From positions 1 to 61,600 of the forward strand of contig JAPPFC010000005.1 of NCBI GenBank assembly GCA_028824015.1: 61,600 nucleotides of DNA, read 5' to 3'. The stretch is from a bacterium (lineage in GTDB: Bacteria; Actinomycetota; Acidimicrobiia; Spongiisociales; ZC4RG35). The position numbers were made by a program, and so were the translations under genes. Under the pieces are notes generated by a model, which saw only the letters and a program-made list of their open reading frames with translations, had not been told where the DNA came from and ran no database searches. Positions within the stretch are counted from its first letter, which is position 1. Every line of letters begins with the position of its first letter. This document shows positions 12,901 through 32,700 of the stretch, in pieces.

Positions 12901-13227
12901 CATGGCTCCGTAAACCGCTTCGTGCTGATGAAGGTAAGAGTTCAAAGGGGCCGACCCCAAGGCGGTGCCCTTGACGCTTTCAGCCGCCTGGCACATCCAC
13001 TGACTCCACAGGCCAGCCAATACGCGCTTGGGATCCGCAGCACCATCCTGAGACAACAAGACAACATTCCTAACTTGGGCCGCAGACAACCTGACCCGGC
13101 GGGGGTGCGAACCACTGTCAAGCACGTACATTTCGACTCCACCGTCAAACTGGTGTTGTAGCATGTCGATAGTTACAAACGACCTTTCGCCCGGCAGGCG
13201 GATCTGATCGCCTCGATCAAAGTTCAT
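9982..13227 (-). CDS. SNF2-type helicase with C-terminal DUF3883 domain, module 1
   Basis: This protein of about 1081 aa is a predicted DNA translocase. Walker A DEPGTGKT lies near residue 121 and the DEAH box near 222, followed by LLMTATPHRG. The C-terminal helicase domain carries VVFTEYADTAEWL, STDAGNEGIDLQSA and RFGRIHRVGQ. The last 110 residues are DUF3883-like: GYDLHATRG near 983 and RAVEVKGRRDS near 1000, the D...E-x-K spacing of a PD-(D/E)xK nuclease fold. I chose the ATG at 13227 rather than one at 13284 because the protein from 13227 aligns with the N terminus of the module 2 homologue. It is the first gene of the operon. A plausible role is translocation on unmodified DNA, with DUF3883 as binding or cutting domain; activity is unproven. 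Confidence 0.86.
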   Translation of the reverse strand: MNFDRGDQIRLPGERSFVTIDMLQHQFDGGVEMYVLDSGSHPRRVRLSAAQVRNVVLLSQDGAADPKRVLAGLWSQWMCQAAESVKGTALGSAPLNSYLHQHEAVYGAMLPQPRLRFLLADEPGTGKTIMAALYLTEASRLGIVNRALIVCPAHLVGKWQDDFSRFFGRELRRITSNTIREHAFEGNPHPLWIVSLQLAAINPKVQAAIDPDRAGWDFVVADEAHRLTPTAQTFFQVGLTVLVKAPRALLMTATPHRGSEYLFRSLMYLTDPQVFPLPGEHGEVEALRRLRPGSVHFLRRMKEGLVDVDGITPLFKKRTAYNIPIALNLGEKVIYDEALALVDAFFPERAVGLGRMVYGKRAASSLFALRETLLRRRLRMGTPVHPDETMGISEEDTDEQELIEISHFESRSSREEKRRITELVERIDQELAKDQVPVSKWPRLEKEVLLPNGVASGGDEQLVVFTEYADTAEWLARRFQMAGYQTEMYSGRQTPAEREEIRARFIAGDFQVIVSTDAGNEGIDLQSARVLVNWDVPWSLVTLEQRFGRIHRVGQTRDVHLYNLIAVETREGDAHTTLLDNLVAAANELDGKMFDSLAVVGELLLSESAGVEKLEDFLSSLYQPSADQSAVTSAIQAMTKERIRQIHAIVQEEDQSLAAMVDVGQAIAGVHQQHLNKINPQFVERYLTRLDHAGLLQLTRSSVADQGLWYVKPAALVSLPFGSPTGTLIATSGDAKRAAVRQGAVSAEKAIPLGPNDEDFRNLVEQATRHLHADLYQGGAMCDPTAITDYRLYCFTVSVDQGRTVTQPEGWRHHTRWSYLVKADAVGLRVVPWEILANLEAAESQNPRAPHPGELTNANAQARHAANKDTAARRAELGVWLDQARVQLQKLPNDLTDDITNNEDRTAARQQVTEAVNQRIATLEASVEFKVGDVELTGWGHVTATATPDSADEDADSEVVSMRHVISLLSSENWSVADVHTEKLGYDLHATRGSKVRAVEVKGRRDSAASSGITLTGAELTTAAQLGRNYWLYVVDNCANGTGELFGKWRDPVTVFAGATKDIPVFRIKGSDLSAAKERAA

Positions 13228-13591
13228 ATGGGCCGCTACCCCCGCCACCCTAGAGCCGAAACCAAGCGCCCACGGTGCTGGCAAGGCAGTCCGTTGAATT
13301 TGCTGTCAACCAACCTCTTCCGAAGACAATCCACTCTCTCCAAGTTTGCGGTCATCCAAGATGTGTTTGTGTCATCCGCATCTTCTACGTGAGGTTGGCG
13401 CATCCCAGCATCAATCTAGCCAACGTGTGCGACAGCAATCCCCACTAAACGACCAGATCCGGACCCATCTCCGCCCAAGAACATCGCTCCGAGGTCTTGG
13501 CATAAGGACTGACCCCGCTCAACGCCGGCTCTGCGAAGTTGATTCGAGGGACCGGTGCTGGCCTCTCGAGGATGTGCCAATCCTCCCATGG
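13228..13591. other. Upstream region of module 1, no gene seen
   Basis: The sequence separates the module 1 operon from a transposase remnant pointing away from it. It should contain the operon promoter. A TTGACA on the minus strand (13303-13308) has no matching -10 hexamer at normal spacing, so I do not call a promoter. No hairpin or family-like frame is visible. Confidence 0.35.
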
Positions 13592-15740: not shown

Positions 15741-16619
15741 CTATCTGCTATAACTCGGAAATTCGCTACCGAGGATGATCTTCCAGAGCCTTATGGCCTC
15801 GGCATGGTTTCCTCTCGCCTCTGCGTCCACAGCATTTACTGCCCTTGCGTGGTTTGTGCTGAACGAGTTCTTGATGTTGGACTGCTGCGTCCATGTGAGG
15901 CCTTCCCCAAGGTCTCCACCGTGTCCGTCGGGATCTTGGACATTCAGGTAGCCCGGAGCCCATTCAAAAAACCTCATCAGGCCATTCCGATGATTGCTGC
16001 TCATCGAGGTGAATACGCGACCCACCATGACCTCCAGATGCCACGATCCGAGCCGGGAACTGTGCACAGAGTTCCATCGCTTCAATAGCCGAACCCTCCT
16101 TCGGAATTGCCCGCTCAGGGTTGATTCCCGTTCCTTGATCCATTCTTCTTGGGCTGGCGGATCCGTGGTGATCCACTTGCCGGTGCCAGATGGCAACGCG
16201 TAGCCTCCGCCATTCCAGGCGAAGACGGGTGCTATGTCAACATGAAGACCGTCTTTGTAGAAGAGACGCACTGCCTGCCCGCGAGTGCCCACCTGCTGAA
16301 CCGTGGTCTTTGCATTGACTTGCTCTCGGAGTCTGTAGATGAAAGACTGGGAGTCGTTGCGGTATTTCTCGAATATGTTGTTCTTGTTCTTGAAGGTGGC
16401 GAGCACATCAATGTCGTCCAGCGGTCGGATGATTGTTCCGCGCGCGGCGGAACCCATCAAGGTTGCCTCCCGCAAGGGGATGTCATATGAGTCCGGGAAT
16501 GTTCTACTCAAAAACCCCCGCACTCCCTTTACGCGTGAGGTGGCCTGGTCCCGCTGGGCTGTAGTCAGGCGGATTTTCCTCTCGAACTGATCGAAGGCTT
16601 TAGCGGTCGTATTGGCCAT
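15741..16619 (-). CDS. CD-NTase (CBASS oligonucleotide cyclase)
   Basis: This 292-aa nucleotidyltransferase of the SMODS/CD-NTase family is predicted to make a cyclic di- or trinucleotide second messenger on phage infection. The active-site signature GSAARGT is at residues 56-62, the metal-binding pair D69-x-D71 lies in PLDDIDVL, and the third acidic residue D128 is in HVDIAP. The C-terminal half is helical, as expected of the family. It starts 2 nt after the stop of the S-4TM gene, so the two form an operon. With no Cap2/Cap3 or HORMA genes alongside, this is a minimal two-gene type I CBASS. Which nucleotide it makes cannot be told from sequence. Confidence 0.85.
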   Translation of the reverse strand: MANTTAKAFDQFERKIRLTTAQRDQATSRVKGVRGFLSRTFPDSYDIPLREATLMGSAARGTIIRPLDDIDVLATFKNKNNIFEKYRNDSQSFIYRLREQVNAKTTVQQVGTRGQAVRLFYKDGLHVDIAPVFAWNGGGYALPSGTGKWITTDPPAQEEWIKERESTLSGQFRRRVRLLKRWNSVHSSRLGSWHLEVMVGRVFTSMSSNHRNGLMRFFEWAPGYLNVQDPDGHGGDLGEGLTWTQQSNIKNSFSTNHARAVNAVDAEARGNHAEAIRLWKIILGSEFPSYSR

Positions 16620-16621
16620 GA

Positions 16622-17479
16622 TTATTCACCCCGTTCGGCGATCTGCTTCGCTGCGTAGCGCATATCGTTTTCGAAGCGCCCGGCCACCAATTTGTAGTAC
16701 CACTCGGGAACCAGCGCGGCTCCGCGCCTGAGCGAGAAAACCTCGTCCTGGATTTCCCGCAGATCGGCCTCGGTGGCCGTTGCTGCGTCCAGCAAGTTGT
16801 TGATTCTTTGTTCGGTTTCCTGACGTTGCGTAGCTGCCTTCAGGTGTTCGCGGGCAAGTTCTGAGGCATCGAGTAATGCCGGCAGAGATGGTAACGCAAG
16901 TGCGGCAAGATATGTTGCCAGGCTGGCATCGGATGCGATCCCCACCCCTACGCCCACCAGAAACCAGAGCCCCGCAGCAGCAGTAAGGAGCAGTCCGTAA
17001 CTGCGATGCTGGCGGCGTGCCCAGACAGCATTCGAGCGTTGGCAGATGAGCACGCTTGCTGGCCATGCCGTATCGGCATCGGTCGGGTACCAGGCGGGAG
17101 TATTGGCAAGATTGGCTGCGTCGCCGCTGGCTCGACGGATCTCTTCCTCAGAGACCATGTGTTTTAGCGACAGATTTGGCGTCAGCTGGAGCACTTCGAC
17201 ATCGAATTGTTCCTGGGTTACAGCACCCATCTCTCGGCGGCGGCCACGAAGCGGGCGGACCACGAGACGGGTGAGGAATATCCAGAGACCGGCTACCGCT
17301 CCGAGGATGGGGCCAGCGTCCGGGTCCCAGTATCGTATCAATGGAGCTACAAGGGCGAGCATCAACGCAACCGATCCGCCGAACGTCTGGAGTCGCTTGG
17401 CACCCCTGTAGAAGACCCGCGCGGCGAGCTGTCGGCGAAGGTTGGGTTCTGTGCGTTGGGCTTCTGCGATGTCGCCCAT
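16622..17479 (-). CDS. S-4TM family pore-forming effector (CBASS)
   Basis: This protein of about 285 aa belongs to the predicted S-4TM pore-forming effectors. Two membrane segments lie near residues 30-75 (VALMLALVAPLI and ILGAVAGLWIFLTRLVV), and two more near 165-215 (LLLTAAAGLWFLVGVGVGIA and YLAALALPSLPALL). A Trp/Asp-rich cytosolic stretch WYPTDADTAWPASVLICQ separates the pairs, and a coiled, charged C terminus ends with VPEWYYKLVAGRFENDMRY. In CBASS the messenger made by the paired CD-NTase opens or assembles such proteins to disrupt the inner membrane and stop phage growth. It is first in the operon, 2 nt before the CD-NTase. The ATG at 17479 is preferred; a TTG at 17506 would add nine residues. 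Confidence 0.8.
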   Translation of the reverse strand: MGDIAEAQRTEPNLRRQLAARVFYRGAKRLQTFGGSVALMLALVAPLIRYWDPDAGPILGAVAGLWIFLTRLVVRPLRGRRREMGAVTQEQFDVEVLQLTPNLSLKHMVSEEEIRRASGDAANLANTPAWYPTDADTAWPASVLICQRSNAVWARRQHRSYGLLLTAAAGLWFLVGVGVGIASDASLATYLAALALPSLPALLDASELAREHLKAATQRQETEQRINNLLDAATATEADLREIQDEVFSLRRGAALVPEWYYKLVAGRFENDMRYAAKQIAERGE

Positions 17480-18010
17480 CGAAGGCCGGTTCTTCCCCGC
17501 ACGCAAGATTCAGCCGCCTCGGCGAGCCAGCGACAGGTCAGGTTGACAATAGACCCTCATCCCCGTCGTGTGGGTATGCCCAAGAAGGTTGCTCGGCATT
17601 GTTAGGTCTCCACCGTCAGGGCCTCTCCACTGGAGCAGGTCCGGCGTATGGGTGCTTCGGCGATCACGCTTCCCAAGCACCGGGCTGTATGCCACCATCT
17701 CAGACCTGCACCTTAGCAAGGCTAACCGAGGTGCTCCACATCATCGGAGACCACGGGTGTCGTCGTTGCTCAGCCCAATCCGACTCAACCCGCCCCAAAA
17801 TGCGGCCACGGGTTGTGGCGATGATCGATTTCCCCATAGTCGATCACCGAAGAAGACCACAGAGGCGGGCGGCGCGCTAGCGCGGATGTTCAGTTGACTA
17901 AATCGTAGTCGGTAGCCCTTTCACCTAGCGGGGATGTCTTGAACGATGGCAAGGCCTCCCGTTTACAATCGGTCCCCTCCCAACAGAAACCCGATTGGAA
18001 ACCGCTACCT
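17480..18010. other. Divergent intergenic region, no gene seen
   Basis: This 531-bp gap lies between the CBASS operon (minus strand) and the Abi_C gene (plus strand), so it should hold both promoters. Small frames here have no family resemblance. A TTG at 17939 could extend the Abi_C protein by 24 residues. No clear promoter hexamers or operator repeats are visible. Confidence 0.35.
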
Positions 18011-18868
18011 ATGAAACCCGCCTTTCTGCTGCCGCATGAGGAGCGGCACCGAAACCTCGCGGCTGCGGGTCTTAAGCCAAACGCGCCGCCCAACCTGGTG
18101 CGTTTGGCGCTGAGCCGGTGTGCATTTGACACGATGACCGACACCAAGTGGCGAGAGTTGGCTGAACTGACCAGCGAAGAGGCATCTGTGTGGGTCAATC
18201 GGCATCGACGGTTCCTTCGGAGCTTGAAATGGGGCGATGACGACTATCGCGGCTATGTATTCGAGTTTTTCAGGAGGTTCATGGGCGAGGGTCTCCAGAA
18301 CTTGGATGTCCAGGTGAAATTCCTCGGACTCTCAGCTTGGCTGGAGGCCAACGACCCGGGGTTGCATGCCGACCTGTACGAAGGGACATCGGTTGATGTT
18401 TTGCCCGAGGTGGATCTTGCCAATCTTCCTGACAGTGGAGCGATCCGAGACAACCTAGGCCGTTTACAGAGCCAACTCGAAGGCGGTGATGCTGCAGCCA
18501 CGATCGGAACCGCCAAGGACTTGATCGAATCCACGGCCAAGGTGATTCTTGTGGCCGAAGGCCACCGTCCCGAGGGAGAGGATCTACCGTATCTGATAAA
18601 ACGCGCACACGAGATCGTCAACCTCCATGCTAAGTCTGCAACGCATCGTGATCCGAAGGTCGAAGCGGCGGTGAAGAGGATACGAGGTGGTCTCCAATCT
18701 GTGGCGCTTGGTGTGGTGGAGTTACGAAACCAGGCAGGCACGGGTCACGGGCGTGCAGCGATCATTCCCACCGGCCTGGACGACGCCCGGCTGGCTGCCG
18801 AAGCAGCCGCGGCGTGGATCCGCTCAATACTGACCGCTTATTCCAGATTCACCAACAAGAGCATTTGA
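18011..18868 (+). CDS. Abi_C domain abortive-infection protein
   Basis: This protein of about 285 aa has a C-terminal Abi_C-like domain: ATIGTAKDLIESTAKVIL, then LIKRAHEIVNLH, then the signature VVELRNQAGTGHGR, and a final helix with AAEAAAAWIRSIL. The R-N-x-x-G-T-G-H-G motif is the best-conserved part of the domain and resembles the R-x4-6-H of HEPN ribonucleases, so an RNA-cutting toxin activity is possible. The N-terminal 130 residues are helical and unassigned (LKWGDDDYRGYVFEFFRRFM). The gene stands alone, between the divergent CBASS operon and a ClpP-like gene. Abi_C proteins are known from abortive-infection loci; the trigger is unknown. The start is uncertain because neither candidate has a strong ribosome-binding site. 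Confidence 0.75.
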   Translation: MKPAFLLPHEERHRNLAAAGLKPNAPPNLVRLALSRCAFDTMTDTKWRELAELTSEEASVWVNRHRRFLRSLKWGDDDYRGYVFEFFRRFMGEGLQNLDVQVKFLGLSAWLEANDPGLHADLYEGTSVDVLPEVDLANLPDSGAIRDNLGRLQSQLEGGDAAATIGTAKDLIESTAKVILVAEGHRPEGEDLPYLIKRAHEIVNLHAKSATHRDPKVEAAVKRIRGGLQSVALGVVELRNQAGTGHGRAAIIPTGLDDARLAAEAAAAWIRSILTAYSRFTNKSI

Positions 18869-19065
18869 ACGATTCGCAGATGCTCATGGCGCGGTCGGAG
18901 TGCCACACGCTGGGTTAACGGTCGACTGGCGGTGTTTGCCGGCATTCCTCGCCTGAGGGCTCCACAAGGGGTTCCAAGAGTGTCTGCCGAGACACACTAG
19001 GGTAGGGCACCTGCTGGGCACCCAAGGTGGCTGTGGCTCCGGCCCAGACATGGACAAGGAGACGG

Positions 19066-19599
19066 ATGGGTTCGGCCACGATCTTTTTCATAGACCCGAT
19101 CAATGAAGAATCGGGCAAGGTTCTGATGAATCAATGCATCGCGGCCGTTGACAACGGCGCCACCGGCCTACAGATCCGAATGTCATCACCTGGCGGATTC
19201 ACCCAGACGGGATTCTGGCTAGCCAACATCCTGAGGAGCCTTCCCGTACCACTAGCCACCCACAACATCGGTGAGGTCAGTTCCATAGCCCTTCCGATAT
19301 TCCTAGCTGCTCCAACCCGTTCCGCCGAACCAACCAGTAGGTTTGTCATGCACCCGCTCACCTGGACCGCGTCGGAGCCAGCCACGATACCGCACCACAC
19401 TCTGCGAGAGTGGGTCGCCAGCCTTAACAACGATGTCGCCCGTTATGTCGAAATTTTTGAAGAAGCCACTAGCTCTGCGGAAGAGCGGTTCGACATCAGG
19501 ACCGCTCTGCTTGGCAACGCGCCAAGCGTCATGAACCCCGCCCAAGCCCTCAAAGCCGGGGTTGTCCACAAAGTGGCATCTCTTCCACTTGAACGGTGA
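19066..19599 (+). CDS. ClpP-like serine protease
   Basis: This 177-aa protein has the ClpP/crotonase fold signature. SPGG at 41-44 is the oxyanion loop; GEVSSIALPIFLAA at 69-82 matches the nucleophile region with Ser73; FVMHPLT carries His96; NPAQALKAGVVHKV near the C terminus matches the end of ClpP. Compared with housekeeping ClpP (about 195-210 aa) it lacks the N-terminal axial loop that docks the Clp ATPase, so it may work without ClpX or ClpC. The ATG at 19066 is chosen because AAGGAG lies 4 nt upstream (19056-19061). A GTG at 19027 would add 13 residues. It precedes the 1286-aa nuclease-like gene on the same strand by 221 bp, which suggests but does not prove joint function. Confidence 0.75.
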   Translation: MGSATIFFIDPINEESGKVLMNQCIAAVDNGATGLQIRMSSPGGFTQTGFWLANILRSLPVPLATHNIGEVSSIALPIFLAAPTRSAEPTSRFVMHPLTWTASEPATIPHHTLREWVASLNNDVARYVEIFEEATSSAEERFDIRTALLGNAPSVMNPAQALKAGVVHKVASLPLER

Positions 19600-19820
19600 C
19601 GCACCGAGCGTAGGTGCCACAAACCGAGGTCGGGACAATGCCGCGAATCCCCGCCCATGGGTTAGCCGCTCCTCTGCCAGCAGCAGATCTCCTGCTGGCC
19701 TACTGTGCTGTCGCCCGAATAAGCGGGGTGGTCAGGCACGACGGTGAGCGTTCCCTCTCCCGCTCCCTATCCCAATTCTCTCTCCAACCGCAGCGTTGAG
19801 TGGGCTAGGGTTTAGCGGCG

Positions 19821-22800
19821 ATGGTTGGTCGGGGTCACTTATTCGAAACTGTGCCGGATTCGTTGCGTGTGACCCGCACCCAATTGCTCCATTGGGCATC
19901 GGGGCTCAGTTCTGCTGGAGAGTTGCCCAGGCTGGTTCGGAAGTTGATAGCAGAGACTGTGCCATCTGTGGAGTGGCTCGATATGCCTGCTGGGGAAGGG
20001 GTAGCAGCACCCGGCTGGGACGGTGTGGTGGAGTGCCCGGTCGGTAATCAGTTCGTCCCTGCCGGCCGGTCGGTGTGGGAACTTTCCACCGAACAGAAGG
20101 GTGCTCACGGTAAGGCCTGTGACGACTACGACAAACGCAAGCGGAACACCCCTGAAGCCGAGAGGGCCGAGTTGAACTATGTCGCTGTGATCTGCGCGGC
20201 CTGGACCAAGAGGAGAGATTTCGAGGCCGAGAAGTCCCGGTTCAACGATTTCGGGACGGTGCGGGCAATGAATGTAGACATGATTGAGGCGTGGCTTGCC
20301 TGCGCTCCAGCGACGACGGTTTGGCTGCGTGAGCAGATTGGCGAACCGGTTGATGGAATCGAAACGCTGTTGAGGTGGTGGACTCGGTGGTTAGGGTCCA
20401 CCCAAGTTCCGCTGGATGCTGGCGTGGTGCTTGCGGGACGCAAGGAGAACGCCAAGAAACTGCGGGACTTTTGCCAGCAGGGCACCGGTGGCGTTTTCAT
20501 GATCGGCGGTAACTGGCACCGCGATGAAGTCCTCTCTTTTGTCGCCGCCGCTTTGACTTCAGATGCTGTTGATGGCGACAGGGATGTGTTGTATATCGAG
20601 GACCGGACCACCGCTCAGCGGCTTTTGGCTGCGAGAGGACTTGAAGGTGCTGGTCGGGCAACCTCAGACTCAACAGGGATGATCGTGGTTGTTCCGTCAC
20701 CCGACTTCGCGCGGTATTACCAGCCGGACAGCGGCCACCGGGTCATAGTTCCAGTCCCGAGCAGTTCACAACCCAACATGGTGCTGGAGCCAGTGGATTC
20801 CGGCGAGGTAGCCAGCCACCTGGAAGCAGCAGGCGAGCACACATACACGGCATACGATCTCGGAACCCTTGCGCGAATGAGTCTTCTGACCTTGCGCCGG
20901 AGCCGGGCTGTGGACCCGGCACTGCACAGGCCCACTTGGGCAGAAGGTTCCATTGATGTGAGGCTTCGCAGGTGCTTGCTTTTGAACAGTTGGAAGGAAG
21001 ACAACGAAAGTGACAGGCAACTGGTAGAGGGTTTCGTGGGATGCTCCTACGAGGATGTGGTCGAGGTCCTCCACGGCATCGTCCAAGAAAACGAACCGCC
21101 GATGCTTCTTACCGAGGAACGACGGCATGTAGTGGCCCCGGCTGACGCATGGCATCTGTTTGCAGAGCAGATCACCCGGCAAGACTTGGACTTGTTCGGC
21201 TGCATCGCAGTCGAATTGCTGAGCCAACCGGACCCGCTTGATGCAGCGACCGACATCGAGCATCTCAGAGCGTTGGTCGGTGAAGTGGGACCGAGGTGCT
21301 CACCAGTTCTTCGCCGGGGCGTAGCTACCACACTGGCGCTCCTCGGCAGTTTCCCGCAGCAGATTCATGGGGATGTGGTCTCCGCAGTCAATCGTGCAAC
21401 ACCTCTCGTTTACCGGATTATGAGAGCCGCTAACGAAGACTCGGGCCCGGGAACCTGGGCATCGGTTATTCAGGTGTTGGATCTCTTGGCGGAGGCCGAC
21501 CCAGACGCAGTGTTGGAAGGCTTGCGGACATGCCTGAACGGGCCCCATTCGGCAATGTTCCTCAACGACCGGGACAGGCCACGCTGGTTTTCCCATGCGA
21601 CACCACAGCAGGGTGTCCTAAACGCTCTCAGGGTGTTGGCATGGTCAGCCGATCACCTAATCGGTACGGTTGATGTCTTGGCCCGACTCGTGGCATTAGA
21701 TGAACGAAGTGGGTTGTCCAATGGTCCGTTGAGAGACCTCTCGTGGACAATGACCACATGGATGCCCCAGACCTCGGCTAGCGGGAAGACGCGTTTGGAG
21801 GCCCTTGACATGCTTAGGCGCCAGCACAGTTTGGTTGCTTGGCGTTTTATGCTGGCTCTGCTCTCGAGTGACAGCGTGCCCGACAGGCACGGACCTCGTT
21901 ACCGCGATTGGAAAAAGGCCAGACCTCCTATCACCCGCAGTGAGCGGCTGGACATGGACACCGAGATAGCGAATCGGCTGATAGAGGACGCCGGCTCAAG
22001 TCCAGAACGCTTGAAAGCCCTCATCGAACTGGTCAACAGTCTCCCTTCCGAGGCTCGGAACGCACTTCACGCCACCTTGGTTTGTATTGCTGACTCCGGC
22101 CCAAGCGAGGATGTCAGGTCTGCAATCTGGCCACCACTGAGGCACATGGTCGACAAGCACCGCTCCTACAGCGACACCAACTGGGCTTTGCCCGAAAGCG
22201 AACTCGACCGGTTCGCCCAAGTCTTGGAACGACTGCGTCCATCAGCACCGCTGGATGCCTATGGCTGGCTGTTCGTCAACTGGGTAAGGAGCATCAATGG
22301 GATTACTCCCCGGGACTATGAGGCGTACACAGAGGCACTGGAGGCACGACGGGCGGAGGCGGTCAGAGCGACACTAGAAACGGGTGGTGTGGCTGCTGTG
22401 CTGGAACTGGCAGTAAGAGTCGACAACCCCCGAGCAGTAGGGACAGCCTTAGCCCGCGCTAGCTCCGACATGGATACAAGCATGCTTGCAGCCATGGGCG
22501 ACGCTCCCGAATCAGTGAACCAAGCCGCGTTGGGATACTTCACTGTCAGGTTCCGAGAGTACGAATGGGAAGACCTTGACGGGTTCCTCACACAGCACTC
22601 CCCCTCACAACGAGTCACGGCCGACCTGCTCCGGGCCATTCCACCCATCAAGCAGCCATGGCGCAAAGGTCACGAACTGGGTGCCGACATCGCAGCGGAA
22701 TACTGGGCCCGTGTCAGTTTTGGAGACCTCGGCCCTCCATCAGACCTTGTCAAACTGCTAGAGGTGTGCCAGCGGCTACGGGACGCTCAACGAGTGTATT

Positions 22801-23681
22801 TTGCGGCGGAGTATCTGTGGATCGGAAAGAACAACTTCGGCACAGACCCCCGCTTCGGTGCAGAGACCGCAGCCTGCTTGGAACATCTGGCAAAACAGGG
22901 GACCGGATCAGAGCTGCGGAAGGTGCTGCCGGACATCTACCACCTGTCCGACCTAATGGAATCGCTAGATTATCACCGGCACCATCTCGGCGCTGATCGC
23001 GTGGCTATGCTCGAATGGCAGTACTACCCGATTCTTGAGCACGAAGAGGACTTCAACGCGCCGAATCTATACCGGAGGATGGCGCGTGAACCCGAATTCT
23101 TTGTCTGTCTTGTTGAACTTGTCTTCAGGCCAGCCACGAGACCCTCCGAACCCGGGCCGGACCTGAGTAACGCAGACCAACAGAGAGCAATGAAAGCATG
23201 GGGGTTGTTGCAGTCCTGGCCATCATCGCAGATTGTGCCGGGATTGGACGAGGATGGTGTCCTCCACGGCGAAAGGCTTAAATGCTGGGTTGATCGTGTC
23301 CGCCGATTGTTGGCAGAAAGCGACCGGGCGGGGGTCGGTGACGGGAGAATCGGTGCAGCTCTGGCAGCGACACCTCCCGGTGTTGATGGCGAATGGCCTG
23401 CCCCTCCGGTACGGGATCTGATCGAGCAGTTGAACAGCGACGACATCGACAGTGGCATAGAAATAGCCATGTACAACCAACGCGGCGTAACCTCCCGCTC
23501 GCCGACCGAAGGGGGCGACCAAGAACGAGACCTGGCCGAAACATACCGACAGAAAAGCCAGAGGTTCAACGGTTGGCCACGCCTCAGCGCCATCTTTATA
23601 TCACTGGCCAACAGCTACGAGTTTGATAGCGCGCGTCATGACCGCTCCGCTGAGACGCGCCAGCGTGGGTTGTCACCGTAA
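19821..23681 (+). CDS. Giant nuclease-like defence protein (1286 aa)
   Basis: This large soluble protein has an N-terminal domain that looks like a divergent restriction-endonuclease fold: GWDGVVE (Asp67), then SVWELSTEQK (Glu87, Ser89), then KACDDYDKRKR, and FNDFGTVRAMNVDMIEAWL near 145. The D-x19-E-x-S spacing fits PD-(D/E)xK enzymes with an altered third residue. Around 225-330 a segment such as GGVFMIGGNWHRDEVLSFVAAAL sits where related proteins have a nucleotide-binding domain, but no P-loop GxxxxGK is present, so ATPase activity appears lost or absent. The remaining 950 residues are helical and repeat-like. The plan of nuclease, degenerate NTPase and long helical sensor is that of STAND-like antiphage proteins, though I cannot name the family. 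It lies downstream of a ClpP-like gene and converges with module 2. Confidence 0.65.
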   Translation: MVGRGHLFETVPDSLRVTRTQLLHWASGLSSAGELPRLVRKLIAETVPSVEWLDMPAGEGVAAPGWDGVVECPVGNQFVPAGRSVWELSTEQKGAHGKACDDYDKRKRNTPEAERAELNYVAVICAAWTKRRDFEAEKSRFNDFGTVRAMNVDMIEAWLACAPATTVWLREQIGEPVDGIETLLRWWTRWLGSTQVPLDAGVVLAGRKENAKKLRDFCQQGTGGVFMIGGNWHRDEVLSFVAAALTSDAVDGDRDVLYIEDRTTAQRLLAARGLEGAGRATSDSTGMIVVVPSPDFARYYQPDSGHRVIVPVPSSSQPNMVLEPVDSGEVASHLEAAGEHTYTAYDLGTLARMSLLTLRRSRAVDPALHRPTWAEGSIDVRLRRCLLLNSWKEDNESDRQLVEGFVGCSYEDVVEVLHGIVQENEPPMLLTEERRHVVAPADAWHLFAEQITRQDLDLFGCIAVELLSQPDPLDAATDIEHLRALVGEVGPRCSPVLRRGVATTLALLGSFPQQIHGDVVSAVNRATPLVYRIMRAANEDSGPGTWASVIQVLDLLAEADPDAVLEGLRTCLNGPHSAMFLNDRDRPRWFSHATPQQGVLNALRVLAWSADHLIGTVDVLARLVALDERSGLSNGPLRDLSWTMTTWMPQTSASGKTRLEALDMLRRQHSLVAWRFMLALLSSDSVPDRHGPRYRDWKKARPPITRSERLDMDTEIANRLIEDAGSSPERLKALIELVNSLPSEARNALHATLVCIADSGPSEDVRSAIWPPLRHMVDKHRSYSDTNWALPESELDRFAQVLERLRPSAPLDAYGWLFVNWVRSINGITPRDYEAYTEALEARRAEAVRATLETGGVAAVLELAVRVDNPRAVGTALARASSDMDTSMLAAMGDAPESVNQAALGYFTVRFREYEWEDLDGFLTQHSPSQRVTADLLRAIPPIKQPWRKGHELGADIAAEYWARVSFGDLGPPSDLVKLLEVCQRLRDAQRVYFAAEYLWIGKNNFGTDPRFGAETAACLEHLAKQGTGSELRKVLPDIYHLSDLMESLDYHRHHLGADRVAMLEWQYYPILEHEEDFNAPNLYRRMAREPEFFVCLVELVFRPATRPSEPGPDLSNADQQRAMKAWGLLQSWPSSQIVPGLDEDGVLHGERLKCWVDRVRRLLAESDRAGVGDGRIGAALAATPPGVDGEWPAPPVRDLIEQLNSDDIDSGIEIAMYNQRGVTSRSPTEGGDQERDLAETYRQKSQRFNGWPRLSAIFISLANSYEFDSARHDRSAETRQRGLSP

Positions 23682-23901: not shown

Positions 23902-26865
23902 TTAGATTTCTTGGATGTTGATCGTGAAACCTGCATCCTTGGCCAACTGTTCAAGGGTGTGAACATCCTCTTGGTCGCCGATGATGAGTTGCGCCATCTG
24001 GTTGACATGGTCAACTTTTCCCTCTTCGATGCGGTTGGCTAGCTGTCGCAGCAAATAGGCGAGGTCGGCCTTACCTTCTTCGCTGCCCGAAGAAACTGTG
24101 ATGTTGAAGGTCACCTGCCAGTGTTTCTTCGGCGGTGAGCATTGACATTGGGATTTGCCGCATTTGGAGCAGGGTGGCGGCGGGCATTCGCATTTGGACT
24201 GTCCGCATGCGGCGCAAACGGGGGGTTCGGGACATTGGCACTTGTCGGTTGGATGCCCGCAGGTATCGCAAGCGAGCTGAGTCAGGGTGGGTTGTAGTAA
24301 CCGGACCGTGGGCAGATTGAGATTGATGTCGGCAGCTCGGGTTGCTTTGTGTGGTTCCCCACCGTCACCGACTAGTGCCACTTCCCCGTCGGTAACGGCC
24401 TGGTAGAGGGCGTGTTGGAGTTCCTCTTCTCCATCGTGGAGCAGGGGTTTGTGAGGGTTGGACCACCAGATGTCTCGTATTTCCCGCAGGGGCCGGCCGT
24501 AGTCGCTTTCCCGTAGCATGTGCATCAATGCCTGTTGGTTGAACTGGCCCGCAGCGAAGGCTTTTTCCTCGGCGTTTAGGGCGTTCCACACATCTGCGGC
24601 GTGGAGGGCGGTGCTGGTGTCTTTCTTGATCCGGATGTATCCCACCTGTCGCTGGTGGGTGCCCTTGGGAGCGAGATAGACGATGTGCTGGTAGCAGAGC
24701 CTTACTCTCCTGTCCAATTGCTGTTGAGCTTTTCGGGTTTCTTCCTTGGCTTTTTCAAGCATGTCGGAGTCGGCTACGACCGATGGCAGTTCGGAGACTC
24801 GTTTGCGGGCCAGCCATTCGGCGGCAAGACCGCGTGCCTGGGCGCGCAGAGCGGTGTTGGCGCAGGCGAACACCAATGACGATGCCCATTCGGTGCTGAG
24901 TGGTCGGGGTCCAAGACCGAACCCGGCCTCGAGCGCGTCTCGGGTGGCGGAGTCGTCTCCGTTGAACAGGGAAAACCATCGAGAGTCCAAGATGGCGAGG
25001 CGGGTTTCTCGGTTGTCGACCAGCTCCTCCTTCAGCACTTGGAGGCTTCCCTCCAGGGTCACGCCCCCTGCGGGTACAGGCGGGCCTTCCACGAGCAGCA
25101 CCCTGTCGAACGGTTTCCGGGTTCTCTGAGCGATGGCGAAAGCCCGGTCGGTGATTGCCTTGTCCCGGTCGGCGTCGGGAATGCTGGCCTTCTCCGCCCG
25201 GGTGAGCATCTCCAATGTCTTGCGTGTCTCGAACACCCACCGCTTGGGAACGCTCCGGCCCTGCCCGGGAATGGAATCGATCGACACCATCCCCCGGTCC
25301 GATTGGACCAACTGTCCGAACACGGTTTCGGCATCACCCGTCTCATAGCCTGTGATGGGAACGAAAGAGGCGGCGAGGATCTCCGCTTCGGTTGCGCCCC
25401 GTTCGCCTCCCGCCCGGGGATTGAGAGACCGGACGAACATGGCGGTGGCCATCCGCTCCGCGGCGCGGGGGTTGCGAGCAACCCAGGCCCATGTCTGGTC
25501 CCGTGCGGCATCGAGTTGGTGGGCTGTTCCCCGGTCAGGGTTGTGCGGGTCGGTTATGTCGATGGTGGCGACTTCCCGCAGGTTGGCACTGGTCTTCTGG
25601 TCCTCAACCAGTCCTGAGTTGAGCAGAGCGTCTCGGAGGGGAGGATGGTCGAGGGGTAGGTCGCCGCTGTCTATCAGCGGTGGTGTCCACTCGCCGGATT
25701 GTCCCCGGCGGGTTTGTTCGTACACAGCCAGGGCGAACACATTGATCGTGGACCTGACCTTTTGGAAACCGGCATGGGTTGCCCACTCGTCCTCCGCCAG
25801 GGCTATCAGGTTGGGGTGGAACGGATAGGACCGGGCCACCCTCTTGCGGAACTCCTCCCGGCCGGGATGGTTCAGTCTCTTGAACACCTTGTTGTGCCAC
25901 GGTGGTGTGATCGCGTCGGTGTATAGGTCCGCCACTAGGTCGGTGACATCGCCGGGGGGAGGGTTGGCGAACAGGCGCTTTTGGATTATGTCGGCGAAGT
26001 CCCCGCCGGAGGTGACCGCGGTTGTTGAGGCGTGGCGGGTGAGCAGGTCCTCCATCTCGGCCCGCAATTGGAGGCCCTTCTCGGTCATGGCCATGTTGTC
26101 TTTGTCGGAGGCGATCATCGCCACCACCATCGCGCAGTTGGGAGTGGTGTTCACCGCTTCCAGCACCGCCCGAATGAATCCCATGTCCAGCACTGCTTGG
26201 TCGTAGTCGCTGGCGGCCATGACCCGCAGGTAATCCATGATCTCGTCTATGAGCACCAGGATGGGACGGCCCACGGTTTGGAGTGCCTCTCCCAGTTTGG
26301 CTTTGTTGGTGAGGTGGGGTCGGTACTTCTCGTAGAGGTTGTGGTCGGGTTGGAACAGTCGCCACAGGAACCGCTCGCCCAGGGTTTTGGCCGGTCCGAA
26401 GTCCTCCTCGGTGGCGGTGGTGTTGTCGCAGTCCAATACCACGCAGAGGGGACTGTTCAGGTCTGGGTCGACGGGCCGTCCGGTGATGTCAAGAGCCGAT
26501 TTGATGACCTCCCTGCCGAGGTCCGTGTCGGCCAACAGGCGAGGGTAGGTGGCGAGATGCCAAAGGCCCACCAGTCCGTGGGATTTTCCACCTCCCATTG
26601 CCTGGTCAAGTCTCCAAACCGCGGGGGTTTGCGTCGAGTGGGGAACCCCGAGACGCACCGCCACCCGGGCCATGAAATCCACCAGGCTTCCCGCCGGGTG
26701 GGTGATCTCCCCGTAGTAGTCGGGTCGGGAGTAAGGGGGACGGGCACCGCTAGCCAGGGCTGCGCTGTGGAGGGACATTCGCACATCGGAAATGACCCCA
26801 CCAGAGGTGATCACCTCCCGACGGAGGCTCATGATGGTCCACCAAGGTGTCGGAGAGTCGGTCAT
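23902..26865 (-). CDS. DUF499 ATPase with cysteine-knuckle insert, module 2
   Basis: This 987-aa protein is homologous end to end with the module 1 DUF499 ATPase. The starts align (TPWW), Walker A AMGGGKSHG is at 89-97, and Walker B ILVLIDEIMDYL is followed by VVAMIASDKDN and SYPFHPNLI. The clear difference is the linker before the C-terminal domain: instead of an acidic segment it holds three successive CxxCG...CxC units (CDTCG/CQC, CAACG/CEC, CSKCG/CQC) separated by prolines, at about 24117-24275. These probably bind zinc and could contact DNA, RNA or protein. The ATG at 26865 is chosen over a frame opening 62 codons earlier because it aligns with module 1 and lies 20 nt after the MTase stop. 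GAAAGGA upstream may serve as ribosome-binding site. Confidence 0.86.
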   Translation of the reverse strand: MTDSPTPWWTIMSLRREVITSGGVISDVRMSLHSAALASGARPPYSRPDYYGEITHPAGSLVDFMARVAVRLGVPHSTQTPAVWRLDQAMGGGKSHGLVGLWHLATYPRLLADTDLGREVIKSALDITGRPVDPDLNSPLCVVLDCDNTTATEEDFGPAKTLGERFLWRLFQPDHNLYEKYRPHLTNKAKLGEALQTVGRPILVLIDEIMDYLRVMAASDYDQAVLDMGFIRAVLEAVNTTPNCAMVVAMIASDKDNMAMTEKGLQLRAEMEDLLTRHASTTAVTSGGDFADIIQKRLFANPPPGDVTDLVADLYTDAITPPWHNKVFKRLNHPGREEFRKRVARSYPFHPNLIALAEDEWATHAGFQKVRSTINVFALAVYEQTRRGQSGEWTPPLIDSGDLPLDHPPLRDALLNSGLVEDQKTSANLREVATIDITDPHNPDRGTAHQLDAARDQTWAWVARNPRAAERMATAMFVRSLNPRAGGERGATEAEILAASFVPITGYETGDAETVFGQLVQSDRGMVSIDSIPGQGRSVPKRWVFETRKTLEMLTRAEKASIPDADRDKAITDRAFAIAQRTRKPFDRVLLVEGPPVPAGGVTLEGSLQVLKEELVDNRETRLAILDSRWFSLFNGDDSATRDALEAGFGLGPRPLSTEWASSLVFACANTALRAQARGLAAEWLARKRVSELPSVVADSDMLEKAKEETRKAQQQLDRRVRLCYQHIVYLAPKGTHQRQVGYIRIKKDTSTALHAADVWNALNAEEKAFAAGQFNQQALMHMLRESDYGRPLREIRDIWWSNPHKPLLHDGEEELQHALYQAVTDGEVALVGDGGEPHKATRAADINLNLPTVRLLQPTLTQLACDTCGHPTDKCQCPEPPVCAACGQSKCECPPPPCSKCGKSQCQCSPPKKHWQVTFNITVSSGSEEGKADLAYLLRQLANRIEEGKVDHVNQMAQLIIGDQEDVHTLEQLAKDAGFTINIQEI

Positions 26866-26885
26866 GAGAACTCTATCTGTCCTTT

Positions 26886-29582
26886 CTACAAGAGGCTCCC
26901 CTGCCCCACTTCGACTGGTTTGTCGCTGTCGGATTCGGTTCGGGCGGCCTGTTCTCGGATGAAGTTGCGGTTGCGCACCGTCCAAGTCCATGTCTGCCCG
27001 TCCTGGTCGGCTTCGCCCACCAGACGGGACATTTCGCCCATGGCTGCCCACAGTTGCTCGTCGGTTTCCCGCCCCAGGTCATGGAGAAAGGTGGCGATTT
27101 CCCGCGGGTCTCGTCCCAACCTGGCAATGCCAAACAGGACATCTATCAAGGAACTGTCAATGTCCAAAGATGCCTCGGAGTCGGCTCCTAAGGCCAGTCG
27201 CTGTCCCCCTTTGGTTTTGACCAAGATTCCCGCCACATCCGCCTCGGTCACATCGTAGGAGAGCCGCTGCCACCTGGCTGCCGAGCCAGCACCCACTCTC
27301 CTGCCATACAACCGCGCCCATGACAGAGCGAACCGGGTGCGCTCGTCGAAGTCAACCAGGCGGAACTTGTCAATCCGGATGTCGGCAGCGTCCTCCACGG
27401 CTTGGTGCGCCAGGCCTAGGAACATCTCGATAGGTACTTGCTGGCCAGTAAAGTTCAGCACTTTCTCGTACCGTCCAACCACTTCCATAGCGGGGGCGAT
27501 AGCGGCCATGCGCTGATCTGAGTCGGCCAACCCGTCCTCGGTCCAGACTGGAACCCGTTGGGCGATTTCTTCTCGTATCTGTTCGGACACGAAGCGCAAG
27601 TCGCCGATAGGACGATCAGGTTGGGCAGCGCGGGTGGCCATCATGATTGTGTTGTCAATGAACTGCCCTGTCTGTTTTCCGCCCTTTTCGGTGCTACAGG
27701 GCCACGAACCGGTCAGCACCAGGCCAGCATCGGTGATGGCGGTGAGCACCCGAGTCCACGCATCAGGGTCGCCATGGCCAAAGACGATGGAAACGACACC
27801 GTCGGGACGGGTCTTGATGCGGGTCTGGTCTAAGGCCTTTGTGATGGTTGCTTTGTAGTGCGCTTCTGTGCGATGGTCATCGCCGACCGAACCGAACTTT
27901 ACGACAGCCTCATTTGTCTTTTCCTGCAACCCGTTGGGATCGCTGGTGATGCCAAACCACGGCATAGCGGTAGCCAAGGCCCGTTTCAACCACACAAACA
28001 GCAAATCGGACGAGTCGCAATAGTTGATCATCGCGTCATAAGGAGGGTCGGTTACGACCGCATCCAATGACCCGTCGAGGATGGGCAACTCTGTGGCTGA
28101 TCCTCGTTGGATTATCGCCGAGTCTCCATTTACACGGCTCAACTGCTTTTGCAGATTTCGAGTCGTGTGGACGACTAGGGAGGACCAGGTTGCTGGACCA
28201 ACACCGGTAGATGTCTCAAAATAATCGAACCCATGTGAGATACCCGAGTCGTTTACATAGATGTGCCCTACACATTGACGCGGTGTTTGGAGCGATGCTC
28301 CCCTCGTGCTGTATTTGAGGCGTCGTACCAGGTTAGAAGCCGAATACCCTGATAATGCTGTGGCGTATTCGGGACTGATGCCCGATGCGGTCATCTCGCG
28401 AAAGAGGCCATCTATCACTCGGACGAGCCGCGCAAACCCCAGTGTCTGTCGAGCATTGCACAACTTTCCCCAAGTGTCGTATCCGTAGCCAGCTGGCCCA
28501 ATAAATGCCGATAAACCGGGCAGCAGTGCTTCTGTTGGCACGGATGACAGACCTGGACCCAGAGGCGGTTCCACTGCTAGTGCCTCTTCTACGCCCAGCA
28601 GCCCGCCAAAGTCCTTCTGGCTCGGCTTGCGGTACCGCTTTCCGATGTCAGCATCAATGTCGGCCACGACCAAGAGGGCATCCTCCGCTAGGTCGTCACG
28701 CATGAGGCGCTTCAAGGTATCTAGTGGATGGGCCTGTTGACAGAAACTACAAATGGCTGTCTTGCCCCGCTTTCCCCTGATGTTTATCAAGGTGGGCTGA
28801 TCTGTCGGGGGGCCATCATGCACTATTGTCCAGAACTTCCCCAACTTGGCATCGGCGACTATTCGATAGGACTGCCCGGGATCCTCCACATCCTTCCGCA
28901 CCTTGGCGTTTCGTAACTTCAAACTGCCCGTCAGGGGAAACCGGTTGCCGCAGTTGACACACGGCAGGGTGATCGCCCACACATACCCCCAAGGTCGTTT
29001 CCCGTTCACCTTGGGGTAGAACTCGCCCATGGCTTGTTCGTATCGGTCTCCCACCAGGTCAAGAACAAACCGCACATCCTGCAGGAGGCGGGGTTCGGCG
29101 AAGTATGTCGTCTTATGTTTTTGGTATCCGTCAAAGGGCAGGTCGGGTTCATCGTCCCAGTCTTGCATGGGCCAGTCCGCCAGCAACATTCCTGCCAGAG
29201 TTGCGACTGGTGAGTAGTCGATGCCCCATGCTTTGACTCCCAGGCGGGCGGCTTCGAGGGGGATCATGGCCCGCCCGGAGAACGGGTCGCACAGTTTTGC
29301 CCCGTTTGGGTAGTGCTTGGCCAGTTCGTCTCGCAACTCCCGGTTGGCCGCGTCGTAGTCGGTCATCGCCTTTCGTACCAGGTTTTTGAGGCGTTCCTGC
29401 TCGTCGGCGTCGTCGGGCCAGGGCAACAGAGAACAGATCACCGCGGCCTTGGCCTGCGCCAAAGGGCGGGAGGCGAACCATGTGAACAGGCTTTTCTCGG
29501 CAAAGCCCCTGCCCCAGCCTCGGGCGGACTGCTCGGACACCTCGGCGCAGGGGAACCACCGCTCGATCATTCGAACGCTCAT
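26886..29582 (-). CDS. DUF1156 adenine-specific DNA methyltransferase, module 2
   Basis: This 898-aa protein parallels the module 1 methyltransferase. It begins with MIERWFPCAEVSEQ and FTWFASRPLAQAKAA, has the AdoMet motif LCDPFSGRAMIPLEAARLG near 100, a Zn-ribbon CVNCG ... CSFCQQ, and the catalytic DPPYDAMINY near 512. The C-terminal region contains VSIVFGHGDPDAWTRVL, as in module 1. By eye the N-terminal blocks are roughly 60-65% identical between copies, with the rest lower, so the copies are old paralogues or separate acquisitions and may recognise different sites. Unlike module 1 it does not overlap the SNF2 gene: 195 bp separate them. It ends 20 nt before the DUF499 start. Confidence 0.88.
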   Translation of the reverse strand: MSVRMIERWFPCAEVSEQSARGWGRGFAEKSLFTWFASRPLAQAKAAVICSLLPWPDDADEQERLKNLVRKAMTDYDAANRELRDELAKHYPNGAKLCDPFSGRAMIPLEAARLGVKAWGIDYSPVATLAGMLLADWPMQDWDDEPDLPFDGYQKHKTTYFAEPRLLQDVRFVLDLVGDRYEQAMGEFYPKVNGKRPWGYVWAITLPCVNCGNRFPLTGSLKLRNAKVRKDVEDPGQSYRIVADAKLGKFWTIVHDGPPTDQPTLINIRGKRGKTAICSFCQQAHPLDTLKRLMRDDLAEDALLVVADIDADIGKRYRKPSQKDFGGLLGVEEALAVEPPLGPGLSSVPTEALLPGLSAFIGPAGYGYDTWGKLCNARQTLGFARLVRVIDGLFREMTASGISPEYATALSGYSASNLVRRLKYSTRGASLQTPRQCVGHIYVNDSGISHGFDYFETSTGVGPATWSSLVVHTTRNLQKQLSRVNGDSAIIQRGSATELPILDGSLDAVVTDPPYDAMINYCDSSDLLFVWLKRALATAMPWFGITSDPNGLQEKTNEAVVKFGSVGDDHRTEAHYKATITKALDQTRIKTRPDGVVSIVFGHGDPDAWTRVLTAITDAGLVLTGSWPCSTEKGGKQTGQFIDNTIMMATRAAQPDRPIGDLRFVSEQIREEIAQRVPVWTEDGLADSDQRMAAIAPAMEVVGRYEKVLNFTGQQVPIEMFLGLAHQAVEDAADIRIDKFRLVDFDERTRFALSWARLYGRRVGAGSAARWQRLSYDVTEADVAGILVKTKGGQRLALGADSEASLDIDSSLIDVLFGIARLGRDPREIATFLHDLGRETDEQLWAAMGEMSRLVGEADQDGQTWTWTVRNRNFIREQAARTESDSDKPVEVGQGSLL

Positions 29583-29777
29583 GGTTCCACTCCTTGGTAT
29601 GCACTTGGGGATGTGGGGTATGGGTCAGGTGGCTGTTCGGCAGGTGGCGTTTTCACTGGTGTCTATTCTGGCAGAGGTATCCCGAAGGTTGCGAAAACAG
29701 TTTGCGGCAGCCGAACGTGGGTTACGGATGATTCGTCTCTCCGTCGGGATCCTGGGTTTGCTGTCGTTCGGCCGGGG

Positions 29778-32700
29778 TCAGTGGTCCGGTTTGTTGCGAG
29801 CGGCTTTCAGCGCGCTTCCCGGTAGCCGGACCGCGGGTACCGGCTTGAAGTCGTCTCTGAAAACCCTCTCCGGATTCTGCCACGCACTGAACAGCCTGCC
29901 GATGCCGTCTTCGCAGCGATCCACGACATATAGCCAGTATTCGTCTCCCATGGTTCGGGCCGCTTCCAGTTCACCGCCGGTGAGTTCGATGCCTTTGTTG
30001 GATGCCGACCCGCGGCGGCCTTTCACCTCCACGCATCGTTGGTCGGCGCCCCGTTCCGCGAGAAGGTCAAAGCCTATGTTCTCGCCGCTGACATCATCCA
30101 CGATAAAGTGCTCCTGTTCAAGCAGGCGGGTCACATGGCGCATCGACACATCTTCGCTGTCTGGATCTTCTACGATTTGCTGACCTGCGATCACATGTGC
30201 CCATCCCAGCCGGCGGGGTTGGGTGTGGGTGATTTCGGCTTGCTGTTGGGCCTGGCTGATCCTGGTTTGGACATTCGCTTCGAGCCGTTTTCTTTCTCGA
30301 ATGCGGGTTTGCAGGTCGGGAATGTGCTCAGTGGTCACATTTGGGAGGTCCCTCAACTCCCGCTTTAGTCCCGCTGCCCACTTCTCCGCTGCCGATTTGC
30401 GCTGTTTCGTTTCGGCGGCAGCCAGATGGTCGGCATGAGCAGCCGCGGAGGCCTCGGCATGCGCGTCAATCGGCCGGGGGGCAGGTTCGGAAGGCGGAGC
30501 GAGGTTGGGCAGCGTCTCCCACGCCACCCGGTTGGCCTTCCCATGCTGGTCAACACTGATCAGCCACGACACTTTATCCTCGGTGCCGTCGTTCCCGACT
30601 TTGAGAGTGGTCTCGTAGACAAACAGGGTGTAGTCCTGTTGAGCGGACGGGTCGGACAGCGCAGCACCCTGCCACATGGCCGCTTCGGTGCGATCTCGGA
30701 TCGCTTGTGTGAGCTGGTAGAACAGCGGCCGGCTGGGAGTGAGAAGAGTCGCTTTTTCTGCCCTTCGGTTGCCCCCGTCGATGAGTTCTTGGCGGAGCAT
30801 CTCCCTGGTGGACACCAAGGCCCTCCCTCCCGTTTCGGTCGGGAAGTTGCGGGGAAGTTTCCAACCGACAGAACTGAGGTAGTAGAACCCCCGATCAGCC
30901 AAGGGCACCGGATCGCGGGTCACCAACCCGGCAGCTACCAACCGGTCAAGGAAACGTTCCACCGTGTCGGGTTCGATGCGTTGCAGCAACTCGGACCTGC
31001 GGGCCGACTGCGCCAAGTCAAGATCGATGCCGCTTTCAAGGTACTCGGTTTCGGAACGCATCTCGTTGAACACGCGCACGATGTCGTTCTCACTCGCGAC
31101 CCTGCCGCCGGGTACTACAGGGGGGTCGAAACAGCTGGTGATGTCGAGGCGTTCCATGACAGCGTTGAGGCTGTCGAAAATCCTCCCGTCCAGTTGGTTG
31201 GCTGCATTGACCAGGTTGTCCAACAGCGTCTCGTGAGCCTGACTCTCGCGGGTGCCCCGCGCCACCAGGTTGTAGAACCACGCTTTGCGTTGCTGGCCTA
31301 TCCGGTGAATCCGCCCGAGTCTTTGTTCCAAGCGGACCAGGGACCACGGCATGTCCCAGTTGACCAGCACATTGGCCGACTGTAGATCTATTCCCTCGTT
31401 GCCAGCGTCGGTGGATACCAGTACCTGGAAGTCGCCTTTTTGGAAGTCCGCTTGGGTCTGCGCCCTGGTGAGATGATTGTCGTCGCCGGAGTAGCGACGG
31501 CTGGTAAACCCGGCGTCTTGGAATCTGTTGACCAGCCAACCTGCGGTGTCGGCGTACTCGGTGAACACCACCACCTGCCGGTCGCCGTCTGGGGTGATGC
31601 CATGGGGGGTTAGGCAATTGTCGATCATGGGCGGCCATTTCGACACTTCCAACTCCGGGCCCAACAGGGGTTCCAGTTCGTCCAGCATGCCGCGGATCGC
31701 TTCTCTCTCCGCCTTGGCATCCACAGACCTGACTCCCTCAACCCGGCCTTCGCCTCCGTCCTCTGCTCCTTCGTCGTACCAGTCGTCGCCTACCGGAGCG
31801 GTGGGGTCCGTGCCCATCTTTTCGGAACGCCGGTGGAGGGTCCGGGACAGTGCATGGAGAGACGACGCTGCTCGTTTGCCGTACACGAGACCGGCCAGAG
31901 AGCGGGCCTCGGGAGGGAAGAATTCCCTTACGAGAGCTATTGCCCGGTCGTGGAAGTCCTGCTCCACACTGTTCAGGAACACCTTCACATTCTTCGCTTG
32001 CCGAGGCTTGAACAGTTTCCGAGTCCTGTCGTAGTCCACCAGTGGCTCTTTCATGCGTCGCAGGAAGTGAACGGGACCGGGTTTCAGTTTCCGACGCGCC
32101 CCCCTCCGGGGTTGTCTACCCCTCGCAGGTTTTTCGCCTTCGGGGAACAGTTCTGGGTCGACCAGATGCAGCAGGTCTTGGAATAGCCACTCTTTGCCGC
32201 GGTGCGGAGTGGCCGTGAGAAACAGCGCATGGGGAACCTTCATCAGGGCCTTTCCCACATTGTGGAAGGTTTCGGCGGTGGGGGTCATCCGGTGGGCTTC
32301 GTCGAAGATGACCGCGTCCCATCCGCCATTCACAGGGCGGATACCCTCCAACACGGTCGGGTTCTTCGCGGCTCGATGCATCGAAACCACCCAAGTTGCG
32401 TGGTTCGAAATGGACAGTGTCCCTTGCTGGACGGTTTCGAGAGTGACTTCTTGGAGGCCGCCGCCGAAGAACCGGTCGAAATCGGCTCGCCACTTCTGAA
32501 CCAGGTGGGCGGGGCACACTACCAGGGCGCGTTTCACGAGACCCAGCCGTTGGGCTTCCCGCAGCCAAAGACCAGACATGATCGTCTTGCCCGTTCCCGG
32601 CTCGTCGGCCAGCAAGAACCGCAGTTTCGACTGGGGCAGCATTTGCCCGTACACGGCGGACATCTGATGCGGGTAGGGACGCAACCGGCTGGAGGCAAGT

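Follow-up and report, generated by a model that had tools for sequence, protein, structure and literature searches.

The question raised by this locus was whether a small ClpP-like gene and the very large gene that follows it form a two-gene defence pair, as the first-pass annotation had proposed, or are neighbours that work independently. The window (the whole stretch of DNA that was analysed, 61,600 nucleotides) holds a dense defence island with Hma operons, a CBASS, an AbiJ-like gene and a GajB-like helicase. The genes were arranged as follows.

2153-4132, minus strand: UvrD/GajB-like helicase, beside the first Hma operon
4290-13284, minus strand: Hma-type operon 1 (HmaA helicase, HmaB methylase, HmaC/DUF499 ATPase)
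15741-17506, minus strand: CBASS-like pair (SMODS nucleotidyltransferase and SMODS-associated 4TM effector)
17939-18868, plus strand: AbiJ-like gene (AbiJ_NTD5 and Abi_C), immediately preceding the ClpP-like gene
19056-19061, plus strand: AAGGAG, a putative ribosome-binding site judged from the sequence
19066-19599, plus strand: short ClpP-like serine peptidase, 177 aa (PF00574, alignment to 9UXT and 16 relatives, tree)
19600-19820, no strand: spacer between the ClpP-like and the large gene, 221 bp
19821-23681, plus strand: large gene, 1286 aa, an Avs/NLR-like protein of a solo family with a P-loop-less STAND core
23902-32978, minus strand: Hma-type operon 2 (HmaA/B/C)

We also observed that the two Hma operons, both complete and divergent from each other in sequence, lie in the same orientation and flank the CBASS/AbiJ/ClpP/large-gene segment, with a local DNA identity of 67-81%.

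Both open reading frames proved to be real genes at these positions, and the gap between them was confirmed. The ClpP-like frame opens at a GTG at 19027, which would give 190 aa. The ATG at 19066 is the likely start, since AAGGAG lies 4 nt upstream of it and the homologues begin at the same place. The frame matched the Pfam family PF00574 (Clp protease) at 6.5e-10, with 39.6 bits against a curated cut-off of 20.2, and its 38-40% identity to phage homologues excludes a chance frame. The ATG of the large gene is backed by a same-genus homologue (79% identity in the N-terminal 131 aa), and here chance is excluded by conservation across phyla.

The large protein found no match in Pfam, NCBIfam or PADLOC. 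Sequence profiles run against the PDB also gave no homologue, and only the comparison of folds produced matches; a viral structure library contained no strong match. The protein could be divided as follows.

19860-20345, plus strand: PD-(D/E)xK-like nuclease domain, aa ~14-175, predicted from the model, fold matches and conservation
20019-20021, 20079-20081 and 20112-20114, plus strand: codons of D67, E87 and K98
20346-20930, plus strand: STAND-like alpha/beta core, aa ~176-370, with an AGR-type motif (R207) and without P-loop or Walker B acid
20931-21230, plus strand: putative winged-helix region, aa ~371-470, named from its topology, with invariant W391 and D398
21231-23678, plus strand: all-helical HEAT-like solenoid, aa ~471-1286, the presumed sensor (model, Foldseek, alignment)

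The D67-x19-E87-x-S89 arrangement that had been noticed at the N terminus was present exactly as described. As D67 and E87 were invariant in the full-length members (83/83) and K98 was kept in 81/83, the motif is better written as D-x19-E-x10-K. This spacing would fit a PD-(D/E)xK site whose lysine is shifted onto the following helix. A conserved NxRGVT...GGxQER block was also seen in the C-terminal part, around aa 1219-1236.

The AlphaFold model of aa 1-480, built from 66 sequences, reached a pLDDT of 92.4 and a pTM of 0.90, and showed a nuclease-like alpha/beta domain, a STAND-like core with a helical lid, and a winged-helix region. For aa 380-1286 an all-helical solenoid was obtained (pLDDT 90.6), which confirmed the long helical region noted earlier. 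When the aa 1-480 model was compared with the PDB using Foldseek, Avs3 came first (E 2.3e-6, probability 1.00), followed by Avs4 (E 2.7e-4, probability 0.98) and Apaf-1 (0.012); taken over the full model, Avs3/4 gave low TM-scores of 0.23-0.26. With VIA-align, the Avs5 filament matched over aa 176-469 (Z 9.3, rmsd 4.9, 240 aligned), while nucleases of the LlaBIII, MspJI and FokI type matched over aa ~10-175 with Z ~9, moderate scores that are only slightly above the tool's background warning. The stronger argument for the predicted architecture is that independent domains agree in the same order. The solenoid matched importin/CAND-type proteins in Foldseek, a likeness of general shape, as is mostly the case for HEAT-like repeats.

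Receptors of the STAND/NLR type are regarded as ATP-dependent switches, and STAND proteins carry a GxxxxGK[ST] sequence after the first strand. At this site the members of the large family show a short turn instead, typically of the form A-x-S-x-[ED]-E-A. A P-loop was present at the aligned site in 0/83 members, and the later strand was without the Walker B acid. The degenerate nucleotide-binding segment without P-loop, first noticed in the single protein of the window, is thus a trait of the family.

We then compared the family with known systems. Like Avs3 and Avs4 (AVAST, STAND NTPase receptors; PDB 8DGC and 8DGF), it is a single large protein with an N-terminal nuclease, a STAND-like core and a helical C-terminal sensor, as far as the models show. 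The N-terminal nuclease effector of Avs1-4 has its likely counterpart in the predicted PD-(D/E)xK-like fold with its invariant D and E and near-invariant K, and the C-terminal helical repeat sensor in the modelled solenoid, to which a sensing role may be assigned. However, unlike Avs3 and Avs4, the family (size ~1250-1360 aa) has neither of the Walker A/B motifs, shows no sequence-level match and carries an N-terminal helix-turn-helix (HTH) domain as an option. Since no described profile of PADLOC, Pfam or NCBIfam matched the core, we rejected an assignment of the large protein to any system known to PADLOC.

The immunity given by PaAvs5 needs Walker A, and mutations in Walker A abolish it, while the nuclease effectors of Avs1-4 act after recognition of a phage protein (PMC12931631). 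Given the need of Avs5 for Walker A, the absence of the P-loop here indicates a different switch. The inactive STAND (iSTAND) modules BrxB, BrxF and PglW of BREX have lost their Walker motifs and were proposed to be a sensor or switch coupled to a nuclease effector (PMC12839542). The large family resembles them in having a STAND fold (from the model) with lost Walker motifs, coupled to a predicted nuclease effector. It differs from them in that a single solo gene fuses the core to the nuclease, the winged helix and the long solenoid. As to the association of BrxB with PglZ/BREX genes, a BREX set was not seen among the recurrent neighbours of the large family (top 25 families listed). In the open-access main texts searched, iSTAND was the only precedent for P-loop-less receptor nucleases, and the published idea that comes closest to such a switch is that of inactive-STAND modules, BrxB for example.

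The family is widespread. Full-length relatives, ~24-36% identical, were found on plasmids of rhizobia, Cupriavidus, Shewanella, Arthrobacter, Adhaeribacter and others, and a member was present in 10/296 genomes of the class, a count that includes the genome of the window. One scan of GTDB species genomes gave at least 568 confirmed candidates, in Actinomycetota, Pseudomonadota, Bacteroidota, Planctomycetota, Acidobacteriota, Chloroflexota, Bacillota and other phyla, and in one archaeal MAG. An N-terminal extension of at least 60 aa was present in 35/83 members, mostly an HTH of the XRE type or the excisionase type, i.e. two unrelated heads on one core; the member in the window has no such extension.

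Two variants were seen among the loci. In two relatives, whose large proteins have a different N-terminal extension of ~80 aa, a gene of 170-176 aa (L044:11384-11896 and L045:7096-7626) precedes the large gene by 14-17 bp and is possibly a subfamily-specific partner. A homologue on a Buttiauxella plasmid (L160:5552-8646) has only 922 aa and matches the query from aa 385 onward; its solenoid is apparently separated from the nuclease, and a 106-aa open reading frame is found just upstream.

These observations have led us to favour, as the probable reading, a single-protein sensor-nuclease of Avs/NLR-like design with an inactive STAND core, placed next to an unrelated ClpP. By analogy with Avs1-4, the helical solenoid would sense the invader through a phage protein or some other ligand, and the P-loop-less STAND core with the winged helix would relay a conformational change or oligomerise. 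The N-terminal PD-(D/E)xK-like domain would then act as a DNase, and the cutting of DNA would lead to abortive infection or interference, as in Avs1-4, which would make it a defence protein. Since the family is without P-loop, its switch would be expected to work independently of bound ATP. A more far-reaching version is that these are NLR-like receptors that fire without any nucleotide switch, binding of the ligand to the solenoid being passed to the nuclease through an ATP-binding-dead STAND core, with XRE and excisionase heads interchangeable; we put this forward only tentatively.

Several observations speak against a receptor-nuclease. The TM-scores are low and the Z-scores near background, the sequence matches neither an Avs protein nor a PADLOC model of the core, and the N-terminal HTH domains of many members could mean a transcriptional role. 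Residence in defence islands is also not universal, since some relatives have housekeeping neighbours. The large protein might be a DNA-acting regulator, or a maintenance nuclease of mobile elements, rather than a sensor of infection. The two types of HTH head fused in many members would fit such a role, as would the several plasmid homologues that lie beside parA/parB genes. However, 48/83 members are without a long N-terminal extension, the order of nuclease, STAND core, winged helix and solenoid fits Avs, and defence genes occur as neighbours of the family: some plasmid relatives lie near SIR2, Abi, SLATT/Shedu or restriction-modification genes (a qualitative reading). We consider the regulator or maintenance nuclease to be unlikely, and retain the sensor-nuclease.

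The ClpP-like protein was examined by alignment, which placed the active-site codons as follows.

19282-19284, plus strand: Ser73
19351-19353, plus strand: His96
19522-19524, plus strand: Pro153, in place of the catalytic Asp

In the 177-aa numbering, Ser73 and His96 fall at the positions of the catalytic Ser and His, as the earlier reading had it. The missing loop was confirmed as well: the N-terminal axial loop is absent, and the protein begins at the first strand. In the alignment with 16 short-ClpP relatives the third position of the triad was Pro, Ser, Ala or another residue, and never Asp; the short ClpPs of phages have an Asp one residue before the aligned position. The nearest solved relative was PDB 9UXT (E 8.8e-30, with the runner-up at 3e-6). 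In a maximum-likelihood tree, the window ClpP and 16 short ClpPs stood apart from 13 other ClpP rows, among them the housekeeping ClpP of the same genome, with a support of 96/97. Because the window protein sits on a long branch, its exact position among the short ClpPs is uncertain. The housekeeping ClpP of this genome is encoded elsewhere, on contig C18 (1643-2182). The window protein has the ClpP fold in common with it, but differs in its separate clade and in the absence of the axial loop and of the catalytic Asp; an identity as housekeeping ClpP was rejected on these grounds.

The protein solved in 9UXT is ClpP1 from Pseudomonas plecoglossicida. It is reported to form a 14-mer that lacks the N-terminal axial domain and has a widened pore and a Ser-His-Pro triad (PMC12900304). 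This ClpP1 alone does not bind ClpX, and together with the housekeeping ClpP2 it forms a mixed 14-mer that is more active; it is an active peptidase, and its deletion slows growth (PMC12900304). The window protein resembles it in being short, in having no axial loop and in its Ser73-His96-Pro triad, with Ser and His kept and the third residue not Asp. A difference is that P. plecoglossicida ClpP1 is only ~35-40% identical to the short-ClpP family of the window. The ClpP-like protein is a short ClpP paralogue, which by this analogy probably serves as an accessory ring subunit or a self-standing peptidase and most likely acts alone or with the housekeeping ClpP.

Short ClpPs occur sporadically. 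They were found in 7/25 genomes in the genus of one Pseudomonas genome, and six besides that of the window were found among 296 genomes of its phylum (E < 1e-6). Among 98 close relatives no short ClpP had a convincing score, and a search of genome contigs and viral contigs with the ClpP alone as query gave no match. From the translations, the flanks in the Pseudomonas and Actinomycetota loci read as ordinary chromosome, with for example a CBS-domain gene and succinyl-CoA ligase. A search of open-access main texts yielded no ClpP-like antiphage system.

A tblastn search of phages and plasmids did give matches, the best being temperate coliphages (38-40% identity); a phage-like plasmid of Enterobacter also carries a short ClpP. 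In the coliphages the short ClpP is paired with a small ribbon-helix-helix-like (RHH-like) ORF. The two lie within the structural region but on the opposite strand, and we regard this two-gene cassette as a phage accessory module. The cassette was seen at different sites in P22-like and lambdoid coliphages, beside antirepressor genes (L037:7744-8528 and L038:7786-8570). The coliphage matches and their setting would suit a phage accessory (moron) protein that was left behind in the island and now has no function, or one that is not related to defence. However, the chromosomal Pseudomonas relatives are intact and include the active ClpP1 with its growth phenotype, and the window protein keeps its catalytic Ser and His. 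A stranded phage product is thus a doubtful explanation, and we hold to the short paralogue.

When the neighbourhoods were examined in both directions, the two families were not neighbours elsewhere. A ClpP-like ORF was present in 0/97 loci of the large family (E 0.01; the 97 include a few duplicate or short ones), and the large gene in 0/16 short-ClpP loci. One genome of the same genus keeps the 5' 395 bp of the large gene at 80% DNA identity, and the homology begins at window position 19815, 6 bp before the ATG; the spacer is therefore not common to this relative. No ClpP was found there in the 11 kb read upstream of the homology, indicating that the large gene travels without ClpP. The only recurrent neighbour of the large family was AbiEi/AbiEii, in ~8 loci.

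An operon of the AbiJ-like gene with ClpP was considered separately and rejected, as an AbiJ homologue was absent from the 16 short-ClpP loci, where no link between the two was seen.

Co-directional adjacency makes local cooperation of the two genes possible, but a local two-gene system, in which the ClpP-like ring processes the large protein upon infection or is regulated by it, is very improbable: the same strand, the 221-bp spacer, the non-housekeeping nature of both genes, their shared island and the absence of a promoter-like site between them (in a scan uninformative for this organism) are outweighed by the empty neighbourhoods, the same-genus large gene without ClpP and the spread of the large family across phyla with no fixed partner. 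Of the first-pass annotation, the apparent nuclease and receptor-like sensor character of the large protein has stood, on the predicted fold and the defence island, as has the non-housekeeping nature of the ClpP-like gene; the ClpP partner, and with it the two-gene defence pair and the idea of proteolysis triggered by infection, was not borne out. Together with the solo receptor-nuclease, and at the same joint strength, we consider it probable that the two genes are functionally independent neighbours brought together by island crowding.

A ClpP pairing would have mattered more had it been real, but it is not conserved. The large protein is the more interesting half of the finding, as a widespread and un-named variant of the Avs/NLR-like design. 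Current defence-finding tools miss this family, since no Pfam, NCBIfam or PADLOC model covers it and its members are mostly named 'hypothetical protein' or 'helix-turn-helix regulator' in the databases. As a P-loop-less, cross-phylum family with invariant nuclease residues, it would be a natural case in which to ask whether such immune signalling can do without nucleotide binding.
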